The translations under genes were made by a program, and so were the position numbers. DNA of 64,000 nt from a bacterium BMS3Abin02 (GTDB taxonomy: Bacteria; Actinomycetota; Acidimicrobiia; Spongiisociales; UBA4744). The DNA lies in contig BDSU01000008.1 of assembly GCA_002897675.1 (NCBI GenBank), positions 1 to 64,000 of the forward strand. The letters run 5' to 3'. Positions 7,663 to 20,820 of this stretch are shown one piece after another. A model generated the notes under the pieces. The model saw only the letters and a list, made by a program, of their open reading frames with translations, had not been told where the DNA came from and made no database searches. Every line of letters starts with the position of its first letter. Positions within the stretch are counted from its first letter, which is position 1.

Positions 7663-8318
7663 CACTCTCAGACTGGATCGACGACCGCACCGGCTGGCGC
7701 CGGATCTGGGAGACTCTCTTCCTGCGCCGGATTCCGAAGGTGAACTGGCTGTACACGCTCGGGTCGGCGACACTGTTCGTGGCCATCAACCAGATCGTCA
7801 CCGGCATTCTGCTGTCCATCTACTACGTCCCGAGCCCCCAGGACGCCTATGCCAGCGTCCAGTACATCACCACCGGGGTATCTGCCGGCTGGCTCATCCG
7901 GGGACTGCACCATTGGGGCGCCAGCGCGATGGTGGTGCTCGCCGTCCTGCACATGCTCAGGGTCATCTTCCATGGCGCCTACAAGTACCCCCGGGAGATC
8001 ACCTGGTTCACCGGAGTCCTGCTCCTCCTCGTTGTGTTTGGTTTCGGATTCACCGGCTACCTCCTCCCCTGGGATCAAAAGGCCTACTGGGCGACCACGG
8101 TCGGCACTCGCATCATCGCAGTCGTCCCCGGCATCGGAGACTGGCTACTTCGCGTCGCCCGTGGCGGGGATGAGCTCTCCGCGGTGACCCTCACGCGCTT
8201 CTTCGGCACCCACGTATGGGTGCTGCCGGCCTTGCTGCTCCTGCTGCTCGGCATCCACTTGTTCCTCGTCATTCGCATCAGCATCAGTGCGCCGCCAAAG
8301 CGGGAACGATCCAGATGA
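7659..8318 (+). CDS. Cytochrome b N-terminal (b6-like) subunit
   Basis: 219 residues, the N-terminal four-helix part of a bc1/b6f cytochrome b. Haem ligand histidine pairs are visible on helix B (GLHHWGASAMVVLAVLH) and helix D (THVWVLPALLLLLLGIH, HX14H). PREITWFTGVLLLLVVFGFGFTGYLLPWDQ matches the conserved helix C and the GYLLPW Qo-side motif. The split arrangement, with the C-terminal half in the next gene, is as in b6f and many Gram-positive complexes. Its stop overlaps the next start by four bases. Confidence 0.93.
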   Translation: MTLSDWIDDRTGWRRIWETLFLRRIPKVNWLYTLGSATLFVAINQIVTGILLSIYYVPSPQDAYASVQYITTGVSAGWLIRGLHHWGASAMVVLAVLHMLRVIFHGAYKYPREITWFTGVLLLLVVFGFGFTGYLLPWDQKAYWATTVGTRIIAVVPGIGDWLLRVARGGDELSAVTLTRFFGTHVWVLPALLLLLLGIHLFLVIRISISAPPKRERSR

Positions 8319-10408
8319 ACGAGGAAGAACGGCGCCGATACCTCGCCGAGTACGAGGAAGAGAAGAAGAAGAAAGGCATCTCCTTCTTCCCCGACGCGAT
8401 CTTCAAAGACGCCGTCGTCATGCTCATCGTGTTCATCGTCCTGGTTGCCCTTTCCTACTTCCTGGGTTCGCCGCTCGAAGCGAGGGCCAACCCGGCGGAT
8501 GCGACCTACACGCCACGACCTGAGTGGTACTTCCTGTTCGTGTTCCAGCTCCTCAAGTACTTCCCCGGCAACCTCGAAGTGATCGGCGTGATCGTCATCC
8601 CGGCGATCGCCGTCGGCCTGCTGTTCGCGCTGCCTCTTCTCGACCGGTCGCCTCGACGTCACTTCCGCGACCGCCTCGGCATCACCGGCGTGACGGCCCT
8701 GGTGCTGGTGGGAGTCGTCGGACTGACCGTGCAAGCACTCCGTCAACAGGTGCCGCTGAGCGGCCAGGAACAGCCCGACAAGGTCGCCGCCCTCTACACA
8801 GCAAACTGTGCCGCATGCCATGGCCCCTCGCTGGCGGTTCCTCCAGGTGTCGACCTGCACGCGGTGATCGCACAAGGAAGCCACGAAGGCATGCCCGCGT
8901 GGGGCGCCGACCTCTCCGTCGACGAGATCGACGCCCTCGTCGGTTTCATCACTGCACCGAACGGGTGGGCGGTCTTCCGGGACGAGTGCAGCGAATGCCA
9001 TCAAGCCACCGACCTCGCGGAGCTGGATCCGTTCCAGCTTCGCGACGCCCTCGATCCCGGGTTCGCGGCGCACAAGGGTCTCGACACTCCCGACTGGAGC
9101 TCCAAACTCGATTCTTCGGCGGTGACGGCCCTCGTCAACTTCCTCATCGCTCCTGATGGACAACGCCTCTTCGCGGCCAACTGTGCGACGTGTCACGGCA
9201 CGGGCGTCACCGTCTCCGACGAGACCGAGGTTCGCTCGATCATCATGAAAGGTGGCCGGCATCGCACGATGCCGTCGTGGTCGGGGCGGCTCCCGGACGA
9301 GGATATCGTGACCCTGGCAAGGTATGTGGTGGACCCGGCGGCGGCACCTGGAGGCGCCAACCTGTTCACACAGAACTGCTCATCGTGCCACGGAGAACGC
9401 GTGCCGGCGGCCGCCACGGTGGATGCCGCATACAAAGCGATTGCCCAAGGCGCCGAGCACGAGACAATGCCCATCTGGGGAGACGTCCTCACCGACGAGC
9501 AGATCGACGCCCTGGTGGCCTACACCGTCAAAGTGTCGAAGGGAGCCCCGGAGGTCGAGGGCCGGCGGATCTTCTCCCAAAACTGCTCGATGTGTCACGG
9601 CGACTTCGGCGAAGGCGGTCCGCTCCCTGCCGACCCGACGAGAGTCATCGCTCCCATCAGCGTCAGCCAGTATCTCGGCACCCACGACAACGCGACGATC
9701 AAGGCAATCGTGACGAAAGGTCAGCCCGACCTGGGCATGTCGCCGTTCGGTGTAGCCTCCGGCGGCCCCCTCAGCGAGGACCAGATCGACGCAGTCGTCG
9801 CGTTCGTGCGGTCGTGGGAGAAGAACCCGCCGGTCGAACTGCCCCCTGAGATCGCACCGCAGCAGGTGGCAGGAAGCTCTCAGCAGATCTGGGACGAGTT
9901 CTGTGCCCAATGCCATGCAGCCGACGGGTCCGGCGCCATCGGTCCTTCGCTCATCGCCCCCGCATTCCAGGAGGGGAACAGCGACTCCGAGATCATCACC
10001 ACCATTCAACTCGGCCATCCGGCCACGGCGATGATCGCCTGGGGGCAGGTTCTGACGTCTCACCAAATCGAAGACCTGGTCGGCTTCATCCGTGCCCTCG
10101 CCGGGGAACCCACACCTGCCACGGAGGAACCGACGTTCGTCACGGACATCAAGCCACTCTTCGACGCCAACTGCTCGATGTGTCACGGCACGCTCGGAGG
10201 ATGGGACGCCTCCGGCTACCAGTCGGCGATGACCAGCGGCGACAATGCTCCTGTCATCGTGCCGGGCGACCCCAACGGCAGCATCCTGCTCCAGAAACTG
10301 CTGGGAACCCAGGAGTTCGGCGGCCCGATGCCGCCGTCAGGAGGGCTTTCCGACGCGGACATCCAGATGATCGAGGACTGGATCTCCAACGGGGCTCCCG
10401 AATCCTGA
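8315..10408 (+). CDS. Cytochrome b C-terminal domain fused to seven c-type haem sites
   Basis: 697 residues. The first 150 form a cytochrome b C-terminal/subunit IV-like domain with three helices and the Qo motif PEWYFL (about residue 69). Beyond about residue 160 follow class-I-like cytochrome c segments with seven CXXCH sites (CAACH, CSECH, CATCH, CSSCH, CSMCH, CAQCH, CSMCH). Most segments also contain a downstream MP-W or MP-S motif that could supply the Met ligand. The last 90 residues resemble the PSCyt/DUF-type cytochrome c domains (GDPNGSILLQKL ... GPMPP). Fusions of subunit IV with one or two c domains are known; seven sites is exceptional. It closes the rightward operon. Confidence 0.9.
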   Translation: MNEEERRRYLAEYEEEKKKKGISFFPDAIFKDAVVMLIVFIVLVALSYFLGSPLEARANPADATYTPRPEWYFLFVFQLLKYFPGNLEVIGVIVIPAIAVGLLFALPLLDRSPRRHFRDRLGITGVTALVLVGVVGLTVQALRQQVPLSGQEQPDKVAALYTANCAACHGPSLAVPPGVDLHAVIAQGSHEGMPAWGADLSVDEIDALVGFITAPNGWAVFRDECSECHQATDLAELDPFQLRDALDPGFAAHKGLDTPDWSSKLDSSAVTALVNFLIAPDGQRLFAANCATCHGTGVTVSDETEVRSIIMKGGRHRTMPSWSGRLPDEDIVTLARYVVDPAAAPGGANLFTQNCSSCHGERVPAAATVDAAYKAIAQGAEHETMPIWGDVLTDEQIDALVAYTVKVSKGAPEVEGRRIFSQNCSMCHGDFGEGGPLPADPTRVIAPISVSQYLGTHDNATIKAIVTKGQPDLGMSPFGVASGGPLSEDQIDAVVAFVRSWEKNPPVELPPEIAPQQVAGSSQQIWDEFCAQCHAADGSGAIGPSLIAPAFQEGNSDSEIITTIQLGHPATAMIAWGQVLTSHQIEDLVGFIRALAGEPTPATEEPTFVTDIKPLFDANCSMCHGTLGGWDASGYQSAMTSGDNAPVIVPGDPNGSILLQKLLGTQEFGGPMPPSGGLSDADIQMIEDWISNGAPES

Positions 10409-13149: not shown

Positions 13150-13381
13150 CCCGGGGATTCTACCCGACGCTGTGTCGGGATCAGAGATCACACATGTCGC
13201 GGCTGTCACCTGATGCCGACACCCTTCTCGTGCAGGCGCACCGCCATCGTGCAGGCGTCGCTCGGAGAAGGCGTCGCGACGGTTGGGAGAGGCGGTAGTC
13301 TTGACATGTCGACGAGACCGTGTTTGACTCGCTCGTCAACACGTCGATAGAACCTGACGCCGGATACGAGAGGAGCAGATG
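13150..13381. promoter_or_regulatory. Divergent intergenic region with candidate promoter for the sulfur operon
   Basis: The space between the leftward ABC exporter and the rightward Met/Cys leader. A plausible sigma-70-like promoter is TTGACT (13324-13329), 18-base spacer, TAGAAC (13348-13353), which would start RNA near 13360, about 20 bases before the leader ORF. The AGGAG ribosome-binding site of the leader is at 13371-13375. No gene is seen in the rest. Confidence 0.45.
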
Positions 13382-13492
13382 ATGGGTAGCCCTGCACCCG
13401 CCTCACTCGTCTCCGCGCGTGACCTTGTCATGTGCATGTGCATGCTCGGCTCTCGGGTGGCTCGCCCGAGCGCACCTGCACTGCGCTCCTAG
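13382..13492 (+). CDS. Met/Cys-rich leader peptide ORF
   Basis: 36 codons plus TAG. AGGAG lies six bases before the ATG at 13382 (an ATG at 13379 is also in frame). The middle reads SARDLVMCMCMLGSR: two Cys and three Met codons in a row of five. Immediately after these codons is a hairpin, CTCGGG-tggctcg-CCCGAG, still within the ORF. The next genes are an OsmC-type protein and metY. Cysteine-rich leader ORFs that act as attenuators upstream of sulfur-amino-acid genes are known in mycobacteria and other Actinobacteria. I infer that ribosome stalling at the Met-Cys codons controls the operon. Confidence 0.65.
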   Translation: MGSPAPASLVSARDLVMCMCMLGSRVARPSAPALRS

Positions 13493-13573
13493 GAACTGCC
13501 ACCGCCCGAGAGGTCACTTCGGCGTTCCACTTCAACCACACCGGCTCATCCGGTCACATTGAAAAGGACTCAC

Positions 13574-14092
13574 ATGACGACATCAACCATTCCACTCAAC
13601 GACGTCAACATCGAAGCCGTCGGCGCACTCGTACAGGCGATCCAGGCCGAGCCCACAAAGGGCCACACCACATGGAAGGCCTCCGTGACATGGGACGCAG
13701 GATTCCGGACGACGACCACAATCGGGGACTTCCCACCCTTCGCCACCGACGAGCCTGAGACACTCGGCGGGACCAACACCGCCCCCAACCCGGTGGAACA
13801 GCTCATCGGGGCGCTCGGCTCGTGCCTGGCCATCGGATACGCCGCGAATGCCAGCGCCGCGGGGATCCGCATCACCGATCTCCGGATCGACATCGAAGGC
13901 GAGCTCAACCTGGAGACGTTCCTTGGCATCCGAGAGGGCAACGCCGGCTATGAGACACTGCGGGCCACGGTCCACATCGTCACCGACGCCGACGACGCCA
14001 CTCTCGCGGAACTTCACGACAAGGTCGTGACGACATCGCCCGTCGGGCACACATTGAGCCGGGCGGTCCCACTCACGATCGAGCTTGCCTAG
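13574..14092 (+). CDS. OsmC/Ohr family protein
   Basis: 172 residues from the ATG at 13574, which has AAAAGGA about seven bases upstream; a TTG at 13559 is in frame but less likely. OsmC-like hallmarks are the GGTNTAPNPVEQLIGALGSCLAIGY block (about residues 60-84), which carries the first catalytic Cys, and a C-terminal THTLSR-like SPVGHTLSRAVPLTIEL. The second Cys of true Ohr/OsmC (usually in VCPYS) is replaced by SPVGHT, so thiol peroxidase activity is doubtful. Placed between the Met/Cys leader and metY, it may act in sulfur transfer, as other sulfur-operon OsmC proteins are thought to. Confidence 0.82.
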   Translation: MTTSTIPLNDVNIEAVGALVQAIQAEPTKGHTTWKASVTWDAGFRTTTTIGDFPPFATDEPETLGGTNTAPNPVEQLIGALGSCLAIGYAANASAAGIRITDLRIDIEGELNLETFLGIREGNAGYETLRATVHIVTDADDATLAELHDKVVTTSPVGHTLSRAVPLTIELA

Positions 14093-14265: not shown

Positions 14266-15552
14266 ATGACCGAACCTACCCACGATTACGGATTCGCCAC
14301 GAGATCCATTCACGCCGGTCAACGGCCCGACCCTGAGACCGGCGCCAGGGCCATGCCCATCTATGCCACAACGTCCTATGTCTTCGACGATGCTCAGCAT
14401 GCCGCCGACCTGTTCTCCCTCCAGACCTTTGGCAACATCTACACGCGCATCGGCAACCCGACATCGGCGGCATTCGAGGAGCGGATGGCATCACTCGAAG
14501 GTGGAATCGGAGCGCTGGCGACCGCATCGGGTCAGGCAGCTCAGCTGATCACCATTCTCACCCTGGCCCAGAAGGGCGACGAGCTCGTCGCCTCGAGATC
14601 ACTGTACGGCGGCACGTATACCCAGTTCGACGTGACCCTGCGCCGGATGGGTATCGATGTCACCTTCGTGGACATCCATGATCCCGAAGCGATCGACCAG
14701 GCGATTACCGACCGCACCAAGGCCGTGTATGGGGAGACGATCGGGAACCCGCGGGCCGACGTCCTCGATTTCCAAGCCGTGTCGGCTGTCGCCCACAGCC
14801 ATGGGCTCCCCCTCATCGTGGACAACACGTTCGCCACTCCCTACCTGTGCCGGCCGCTCGAGCACGGAGCCGATATCGTCACCCACTCGGCCACCAAGTT
14901 CATCGGAGGCCATGGCACCGTGATCGCCGGCTGCATCGTCGAGAGCGGCAGATTCCCGTGGGACAACGGCAACTTCCCTCTTCTCACCGACCCCTCCCCC
15001 GCCTACCACGACCTCCGGTTCTGGGAGAATTTCCGAGAGTATGCGTACCTGATGAAGGCACGCACCGAACTCCTGCGCGACACCGGGGCCTCGCTGTCGC
15101 CGTTCAACTCGTTCCTGTTGCTCCTGGGCCTCGAGACGCTGTCGCTCCGGATGAGACAGCATGTCGCCAACGCCAAGCTGGTCGCGCAGTTCCTTCGTGA
15201 CCACGCCAAGGTCGCCTGGGTCGGCTATCCGATCTTCGATGACAACGAATGGACCACCCAGGCCCGGCGCTACCTGCCCGAGGGCCCCGGAGCCATCTTC
15301 ACGTTCGGTCTCGTGGGAGGCTTTGCCGCGGGAGTCAGGTTCATCGAGAACGTCGAACTGGCCTCCCACGTCGCCAACGTCGGCGATGCCAAGACGCTCG
15401 TCATCCATCCGGCATCGACCACGCATCAGCAGGTGCCAGAAAACGAGCGAGCGGCCATGGGGGTGGGCAACGACATGATCCGAATCTCGGTCGGGATAGA
15501 GGACATCGACGACATCCTGTGGGATCTCGGGCGAGCACTGGAGGCGACATGA
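14266..15552 (+). CDS. metY: O-acetylhomoserine sulfhydrylase (aminocarboxypropyltransferase)
   Basis: 428 residues, a PLP enzyme of the Cys/Met metabolism family. It would make homocysteine (and methionine-pathway thioethers) from O-acetylhomoserine and sulfide. The N-terminus [30 protein letters not shown] and [11 protein letters not shown] are typical of MetY, as is the PLP lysine in [12 protein letters not shown] (about residue 209) and the long insert compared with MetB. GGAG stands eight bases before the ATG at 14266. A roughly 170-base spacer with a GGTCCG/CGGACC inverted repeat separates it from the OsmC gene. It overlaps the CoA-binding gene by four bases. Confidence 0.93.

Positions 15553-16209: not shown

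Positions 16210-20819
<4,610 letters not shown>

Positions 20820-20820
<1 letters not shown>

Follow-up and report, generated by a model that had tools for sequence, protein, structure and literature searches.

A mixed cysteine and methionine codon leader, probably a ribosome-mediated attenuator, recurs upstream of sulfur metabolism genes in an order of Acidimicrobiia

The locus studied here lies in a stretch of 64,000 nucleotides (hereafter, the window) at the start of contig BDSU01000008.1 of bacterium BMS3Abin02, a member of the Acidimicrobiia (order Spongiisociales). It comprises an operon that begins with an OsmC-family gene and metY (O-acetylhomoserine sulfhydrylase), followed by a gene for a CoA-binding protein and a gene at 16210-20820 that is gltB-like as judged from its ORF and translation only. 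Ahead of the operon, positions 13382-13492 form a leader ORF that encodes MGSPAPASLVSARDLVMCMCMLGSRVARPSAPALRS, is provided with a Shine-Dalgarno sequence and ends approximately 80 nt before the osmC start (Table 1). A preliminary description of this DNA had reported such a leader before a metY operon; metY does belong to the operon, but as its second gene, and osmC as the first gene was missed, as were the pseudoknot, the other genes that would be controlled and the SAM riboswitch of relatives described below. Elsewhere in the window, positions 8216-10408 encode a single protein with a cytochrome b C-terminal domain (PF00032) and, after it, six or more cytochrome c domains (PF13442 in six stretches; seven CxxCH motifs counted by eye).

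Table 1. Features of the leader region and the first two genes of the operon in the window.
Feature	Position	Strand	Basis or remark
Putative promoter: -35 TTGACA (13301-13306), 17-nt spacer, -10-like TTGACT (13324-13329)	13301..13329	+	sequence
Shine-Dalgarno GAGGAG of leader ORF	13370..13375	+	6 nt before ATG 13382
Leader ORF (uORF), 36 codons and TAG	13382..13492	+	ORF reading, frame conservation
Candidate regulatory codons ATG TGC ATG TGC ATG (MCMCM)	13430..13444	+	sequence and family conservation
Strand S1, the P1 5' arm CTCTCGGGTGG, also encoding S-R-V	13450..13460	+	pairing with 13502-13512
P0 3' arm CCCGAG, pairs with 13452-13457; alternative partner of S1	13465..13470	+	weak covariation
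P4 hairpin, GAGCGC (13468-13473) with GCGCTC (13483-13488)	13468..13488	+	covariation
CTCCT (anti-Shine-Dalgarno-like), overlapping leader stop TAG	13486..13492	+	in the window pairs with osmC Shine-Dalgarno as TCCT/AGGA only
P2 5' arm GGAAC-(T)-GCC	13492..13500	+	pairing
P1 3' arm CCGCCCGAGAG	13502..13512	+	11 pairs with 13450-13460
P2 3' arm GGCGTTCC	13521..13528	+	none of 5000 permutations pairs as well
OsmC-family gene, first of operon	13574..14092	+	PF02566, E 1.8e-18
metY, O-acetylhomoserine sulfhydrylase, second gene	14266..15552	+	PF01053; TIGR01326 633.6 bits (cut-off 495.1)

The reading frame extends over 13379-13492, and the second ATG, at 13382, is the likely start because it leaves a 6-nt spacer after GAGGAG and because the first ATG reads ATA in the closest relative, L002. 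The 36 codons, the ribosome-binding site and the MCMCM cluster of the preliminary description were all confirmed. The cluster is unique in the window when six frames are searched for runs of five Cys/Met residues with at least two of each, and it ends 15 codons ahead of the stop; the hairpin that had been noted beyond it (CTCGGG 13452-13457 with CCCGAG 13465-13470) begins within three codons. The leader's own promoter, also claimed there, is plausible only: the TTGACA-17-TTGACT pair lies approximately 50 nt upstream of the leader start and a TTGAC(A/T)-17-TTNACT-like spacing is seen by eye in L002, L003 and L033 (it is absent from L032), but a strict scan for promoters and intrinsic terminators returned neither. 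An Rfam search of the 64-kb window and of the leader gave no relevant family at gathering score, and the SAM-I riboswitch (RF00162) is absent from the window, so that the leader is not of the SAM-I riboswitch kind. A short ORF with translation signals is situated between a putative promoter and the first gene, as in a leader-peptide attenuator. Just 5' of the osmC Shine-Dalgarno, at 13529-13565, there is a further hairpin (ACCGG/CCGGT inside TTCAA/TTGAA), which by eye seems to covary among the close relatives L002, L031 and L032.

Homologues of the leader were collected by protein homology of the downstream gene. An OsmC match was present in 41 of 59 related genomes, and a contig search gave 80 named loci, mostly from metagenome-assembled Acidimicrobiia and Actinomycetes with some other groups. 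The 110 loci yielded 35 distinct upstream elements, nine of them seen twice, and 34 were complete enough for use. Nine duplicate osmC loci were dropped and L054 (truncated at a contig end) was kept out of the tests; L021 (incomplete) and L004, L018 and L019 (without a complete P1-type element) are likewise not among the 34. A covariance model added 38 copies, from which L149, the first element of L153 and L165 had been removed as repeats of osmC elements, giving a family of 72; L178 lacks a gene start and analyses requiring one used 71.

The osmC leaders share a plan: Cys and Met codons, a conserved S-R-V (or close to it) encoded in CTCTCGGGTGG or a variant, in most of them the stop codon, and then CCACCCGAGAG or the matching variant. 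The leader stop follows directly after the Ser in L008 and L016, unlike most osmC leaders. Of the 72 leaders, 69 have two or more Cys/Met codons in the 10-codon stretch that precedes the conserved Ser and none is without any; both amino acids are represented in 54, Cys alone in 15 and Met alone in three. The distance from the last such codon to the Ser is 0 codons in 23 leaders, 1 in three and 2 in 46. In the 23 non-redundant osmC-type leaders the eight codons before the Ser hold 74 Cys/Met residues against 11.8 expected from nucleotide shuffling (sd 3.3, maximum 22 in 2000), and the mean per osmC-type leader is 3.22 in the leader frame versus 1.39 and 0.17 in the other two frames. The 20 codons before the Ser are free of in-frame stops in all 34 osmC-type leaders, and an in-frame start accompanied by a Shine-Dalgarno-like match is present in 54 of the 72 leaders of the family.

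Codons for the amino acids made by the operon are kept in frame, then, while the order and number of the residues vary freely: MCMCM, CSC, CCC, MMMM and MAMM all occur, and further readings before the Ser include MCMCQC, TCMCLCMC, MCMCLMC, MCVCMCVC, MMMM and CCCGCC. In the window's own clade of six sequences, both Cys codons and four of the five MCMCM residues are retained in every member, the middle Met being replaced once by Ile, and the first Cys codon varies between TGC and TGT, synonymously only. The outcome that the preliminary description had named as telling against its proposal, MCMCM codons unconserved amid conserved surrounding DNA, was looked for in these relatives and was not what we found. 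Leader Cys codons are TGT in 101 cases and TGC in 61. The corresponding counts are 4 and 77 for the genes downstream of 71 copies (p 8e-20) and 11 and 23 for six ORFs of the window (p 0.002 against the leaders), both p values being too small because related sequences are counted apart. Selection for slow Cys codons would be expected to produce such a preference.

Some other upstream regions differ from this plan. Several non-osmC leaders (L141-L146, L159, L168, L170 and L180) have no Shine-Dalgarno and, 7-10 nt ahead of the ATG, carry a TANNNT box (10 of 19, versus a control rate of 1.3 per cent), which suggests that several non-osmC uORFs may be leaderless, like mycobacterial ones. The osmC upstream regions of L004 and L018 contain a SAM riboswitch and then a different short leader that ends in THRCPMS(S)G or THRCPMSN and has no P1 element, perhaps a second type of Cys/Met leader.

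The conserved codons lead into an RNA fold of several helices. P1 (CTCTCGGGTGG with CCACCCGAGAG) is paired in 96 per cent of cells over 34 sequences, with two-sided changes at six of 11 pairs; shuffling gave a mean of 2.0 (0 of 500 as good) and a slid pairing at most two. P2 joins the bases immediately 5' and 3' of the P1 3' arm and occurs as GAACGCC/GGCGTTC, GACACC/GGTGTC, GACGACCGCC/GGCGGTCGTC and others. The P1 3' arm falls inside the P2 loop, hence P1 and P2 cross in a pseudoknot topology. P4 joins the strand after the P1 5' arm to the stop-codon strand, with covariants GAGTGC/GCACTC, GAGCGT/ACGCTC and GAGGGG/CTCCTC. P0, the near partner of S1, covaries weakly (12 of 500 shuffles).

For 49 representatives of the 71 copies, the sequences' own pairing beat permuted pairings for P1, P2, P4 and the anti-Shine-Dalgarno with the Shine-Dalgarno (0 of 5000 each), P0 gave 8 of 5000 and three control pairings did not beat permutation; these numbers are not exact probabilities, since permutation does not remove relatedness. 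Among these rows, 13 of 49 have an empty S3 segment and constant energies, and the comparison stays valid. The 19 copies of the CTCC class (defined below) gave 0 of 5000 for both P4 and the anti-Shine-Dalgarno pairing and 147 of 5000 for P0. P0 and P1 share S1, and P0 and P4 overlap by GAG, so that the helices would compete as in an attenuator; 70 of 71 copies have the leader stop in the interval between the two P1 arms. The unpaired stretches of the fold show no conservation.

The distribution of the element was surveyed with two covariance models. Model R1 was built from osmC leaders only and run on 395 genomes of the class, of which 88 had a match at E <= 0.1; many genomes of the order hold two to four copies, and all 19 matched genomes outside the order had E values of 0.0027 or worse, which is chance level. 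From R1 matches with E <= 1.5e-4 at loci not yet in the set, 40 further regions were taken and the 38 further copies were read; weaker matches and several near-duplicates of OsmC-paralogue copies were left out, and opposite-strand matches (17 of 106), which arise from the near-palindromic P1, were not counted as copies, and the alignment that includes them entered no test. For the order, 138 genomes were scanned with model R2, trained on a mixed set, and 60 contained the element at E <= 0.001. In a sample of the phylum, eight of 396 genomes gave a match at E <= 0.01; only two, both of the order, stand out, and those outside it (E 0.001 to 0.007) are at chance level.

A recognised sulfur-related family gene follows each of the 72 copies, including all 38 found with R1. 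By family search and BLAST, the first recognised gene of these 38 is a rhodanese in 13, an OsmC paralogue in nine (followed by an FAD oxidoreductase in L147 and L152), MetY in six, MetZ in four, and OsmC then MetY, DUF4395 and an NMT1-like binding protein in two each; metY, metZ or rhodanese accompany 25 of 38, and sulfite reductase or MetX comes next in several non-osmC copies. Rhodanese and sulfite reductase are also the kinds of product encoded by cysA2 and nirA of mycobacteria. The OsmC-family, DUF4395 and NMT1-like genes are probably parts of sulfur metabolism in the order. The window's own genome holds a second copy, L141 (G000:C3:24500-28500; L141:3337-3445, minus strand; leader at G000:C3:27834-27944), which precedes rhodanese and sulfite reductase genes, reads MCMCQC-SRV and has an anti-Shine-Dalgarno that pairs over 8 nt with the gene's Shine-Dalgarno. 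Looser settings returned no third copy in this genome, only weak matches with E values of 0.055 to 9.5, which we do not take as copies; one of these, L218, is without a Cys/Met cluster.

A SAM riboswitch (RF00162) is found upstream of 41 of the 72 copies, mainly those before osmC-metY, metY and OsmC paralogues; the L009-type leader is an example. It is missing from the copies before rhodanese and sulfite reductase and from the window's clade, in which L033 is counted as lacking it on a contig that is too short upstream to judge. Met codons number 1.94 per 10 codons without the riboswitch and 1.27 with it (p 0.038, all 72); the same comparison among the 49 representatives gave p values of 0.08 to 0.83 by stretch length, and the idea that Met codons replace a lost SAM riboswitch was not supported there. 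In L040, a SAH riboswitch (RF01057) lies at 490-580 on the minus strand near a SAM riboswitch ahead of osmC, and no leader of the present type is visible there.

A candidate output step involves the region of the leader stop. CTCC occurs near the stop in 31 of 71 copies, of which 19 have GGAG within the gene's Shine-Dalgarno; of those 19, 16 have the stop codon immediately 3' of CTCC. Across the 19, the nucleotide preceding CTCC covaries with the one following GGAG (A/T 7, G/C 8, G/T 1, G/A 3; Fisher p 1.6e-4, or 1.4e-3 after three close pairs were collapsed), and complementarity extends to 8 to 12 nt in six (L141, L142, L150, L153b, L175 and L176). In many non-osmC copies the leader stop overlaps an anti-Shine-Dalgarno that covaries with the gene's Shine-Dalgarno. 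When the osmC leaders, codon region included, were examined by a sliding scan, no stretch covaried with the Shine-Dalgarno; at fixed offsets in the CTCC class, the same scan reached only z -1.9 for the segment around S3.

The states of the ribosome were modelled for 46 of 71 copies by equilibrium folding in which the footprint was barred from pairing. Shine-Dalgarno accessibility with a free, stalled and stop-positioned ribosome was 0.20, 0.22 and 0.28 for the CTCC class (28 copies), 0.46, 0.41 and 0.46 for the others (18 copies) and 0.42, 0.42 and 0.43 for the window copy L001. Equilibrium folding with a masked footprint in these 46 copies hence hardly altered accessibility and revealed no clear switch, a result that counts against a simple nested-structure model; pseudoknots and co-transcriptional folding fall outside such a calculation.

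Taken as a whole, we consider it likely that the element works in cis as a ribosome-mediated attenuator, with the availability of charged tRNA-Cys and tRNA-Met as its signal and translation initiation as its target. A ribosome would initiate at 13382 and translate the leader. When Cys-tRNA or Met-tRNA is short it would wait in MCMCM, two codons before the Ser of S1; given the size of a ribosome footprint and the position of the last Cys/Met codon 0-2 codons before the Ser throughout the family, the RNA occupied by such a ribosome would include part of the P1 5' arm. S1, once covered, would pair neither with the near P0 nor with the far P1 that crosses P2, and 13468-13473 would be free to form P4 with 13483-13488, hiding CTCCT and the stop, with expression of osmC-metY as the outcome. 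When both amino acids are plentiful the ribosome would proceed to the stop, S1 would pair with P0 or P1, the P1/P2 fold would close, and CTCCT would be available to mask the first gene's ribosome-binding site, with a fall in expression. Which of the states is on, translation initiation as the output and the equal weight of Met and Cys stalls are what we infer; the output step of the window's own copy, in which the predicted anti-Shine-Dalgarno pairing spans 4 nt only, is the least certain part. Judged from the sequences, the earlier interpretation of a leader that would sense both sulfur amino acids is supported. One leader reads two amino acids also in the E. coli thr operon, with interleaved Thr and Ile codons; unlike the Cys/Met leaders, it has an intrinsic terminator and serves a single operon.

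The alternative that deserves the most attention retains this sensor and places the output in Rho-dependent termination or mRNA decay instead of Shine-Dalgarno access: a stalled ribosome would shield the RNA, and a released one would expose the stretch up to osmC to Rho. We regard it as rather unlikely, although the missing intrinsic terminator, the osmC set without a covarying Shine-Dalgarno partner and the approximately 80 nt between leader stop and osmC start all speak in its favour, and the available parts of two papers provide parallels in Rho control of the mycobacterial Mbox leader with an anti-Shine-Dalgarno near the uORF (PMC12810186) and in the suggestion by Seliverstov et al. 2005 (PMC1262725) that Rho acts at the Cys leaders of mycobacteria. 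Rho alone leaves unexplained the covariation of anti-Shine-Dalgarno and Shine-Dalgarno in the non-osmC copies. The crossing and covariation of P1 and P2 could also belong to a pseudoknot that itself senses by binding a ligand or a protein, the leader peptide being incidental, which is how the actinobacterial leuA LEU element is read in the portion of PMC1262725 at hand. Such a sensor is improbable here: the unpaired parts are not conserved, and the Cys/Met codons hold a single frame despite synonymous changes and stay at a fixed distance from S1.

Clusters of Cys and Met can bind soft metals, to whose ligands MCMCM bears a resemblance, and OsmC proteins have links to peroxide stress, so the nascent peptide might be imagined to sense copper, zinc or redox state and to arrest the ribosome in cis or act in trans. 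The free variation in residue order and number, together with downstream genes for sulfite reductase, MetZ, MetX and MetY in place of metal genes, renders this very improbable. Short ORFs are common in the window, and the leader could for that reason be a chance ORF; the conservation of codons and their position across the family refutes this, and we give it practically no credence.

Ribosome-mediated attenuation is a known kind of regulation and Cys-rich leaders are known in mycobacteria. In the parts available of Shell et al. 2015 (PMC4633059) and of the account in PMC9031893 of Canestrari et al. 2020 (Mol Microbiol), Cys-rich leaderless uORFs are described before mycobacterial cysA2, nirA and Rv0485. 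The present element resembles these in having clustered Cys codons before sulfurtransferase and sulfite reductase genes of actinobacteria, and Cys-limited progress of the ribosome is proposed in those sections. It is unlike them, as they are presented there, in that the window cluster mixes Met with Cys rather than being Cys-only at the C-terminus (54 of 72 leaders are mixed), the window leader has a Shine-Dalgarno and a putative promoter instead of being leaderless, and the family combines a covarying pseudoknotted fold, metY, metZ, metX or osmC downstream and often a SAM riboswitch.

The sections at hand of Seliverstov et al. 2005 (PMC1262725) report mycobacterial Cys leaders without conserved hairpins at cys genes and no conserved RNA structure before the methionine operons of the genomes studied there. 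Shared with the systems in those sections are actinobacterial leader peptides of amino acid operons without obvious terminators, including LEU, a pseudoknot with a codon run. The LEU codon run, as given there, pairs with the Shine-Dalgarno, whereas here the stop-codon segment does so in non-osmC copies; the osmC leaders, codon region included, have no covarying Shine-Dalgarno partner, and the genes are sulfur genes and not leuA. The M. tuberculosis Mbox riboswitch of D'Halluin et al. 2026 (PMC12810186), with its uORF and its anti-Shine-Dalgarno and anti-anti-Shine-Dalgarno strands, and the B12 riboswitch-uORF modules (PMC11260477) share the order of riboswitch and translated uORF; the portions available of these papers describe no amino-acid-sensing codons, unlike the present element, in which the codon run would be the sensor and the SAM riboswitch an optional upstream addition. 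The uORFC-8-2 motif of Rhodobacterales cysS, in the part of PMC8632094 at hand, shares ribosome-mediated attenuation with Cys codons, but has two tandem Cys codons and an intrinsic terminator with a U-run, is confined to cysS and belongs to alphaproteobacteria. In the literature searched, mostly by title and the opening of the abstract, no publication on a combined Cys/Met leader was found, and none on leader peptides in Acidimicrobiia; as far as this search extends, mixed Cys/Met codons, the fold, the gene set and the SAM riboswitch are new in combination.

The recurrence of the element allows a wider proposal, which we advance tentatively and with slightly less than even confidence: that sulfur assimilation in the order depends in large part on one recurring RNA module, which would follow the ribosome at interleaved Cys and Met codons. 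In more than half of the copies, stacked with a SAM riboswitch, a single transcript would integrate charged tRNA-Cys, charged tRNA-Met and SAM, and the window's clade may have lost the riboswitch and rely on a longer Met/Cys run alone. If true, an attenuator for two amino acids, Cys and Met, would be employed as a module at several operons per genome, spanning sulfite reduction to homocysteine synthesis and often operating in series with a SAM riboswitch. The cysteine leaders of mycobacteria would be extended to methionine genes and to an uncultured order, with a defined covarying architecture, and it would become testable how a single transcript joins ribosome stalling with a pseudoknot and a riboswitch.
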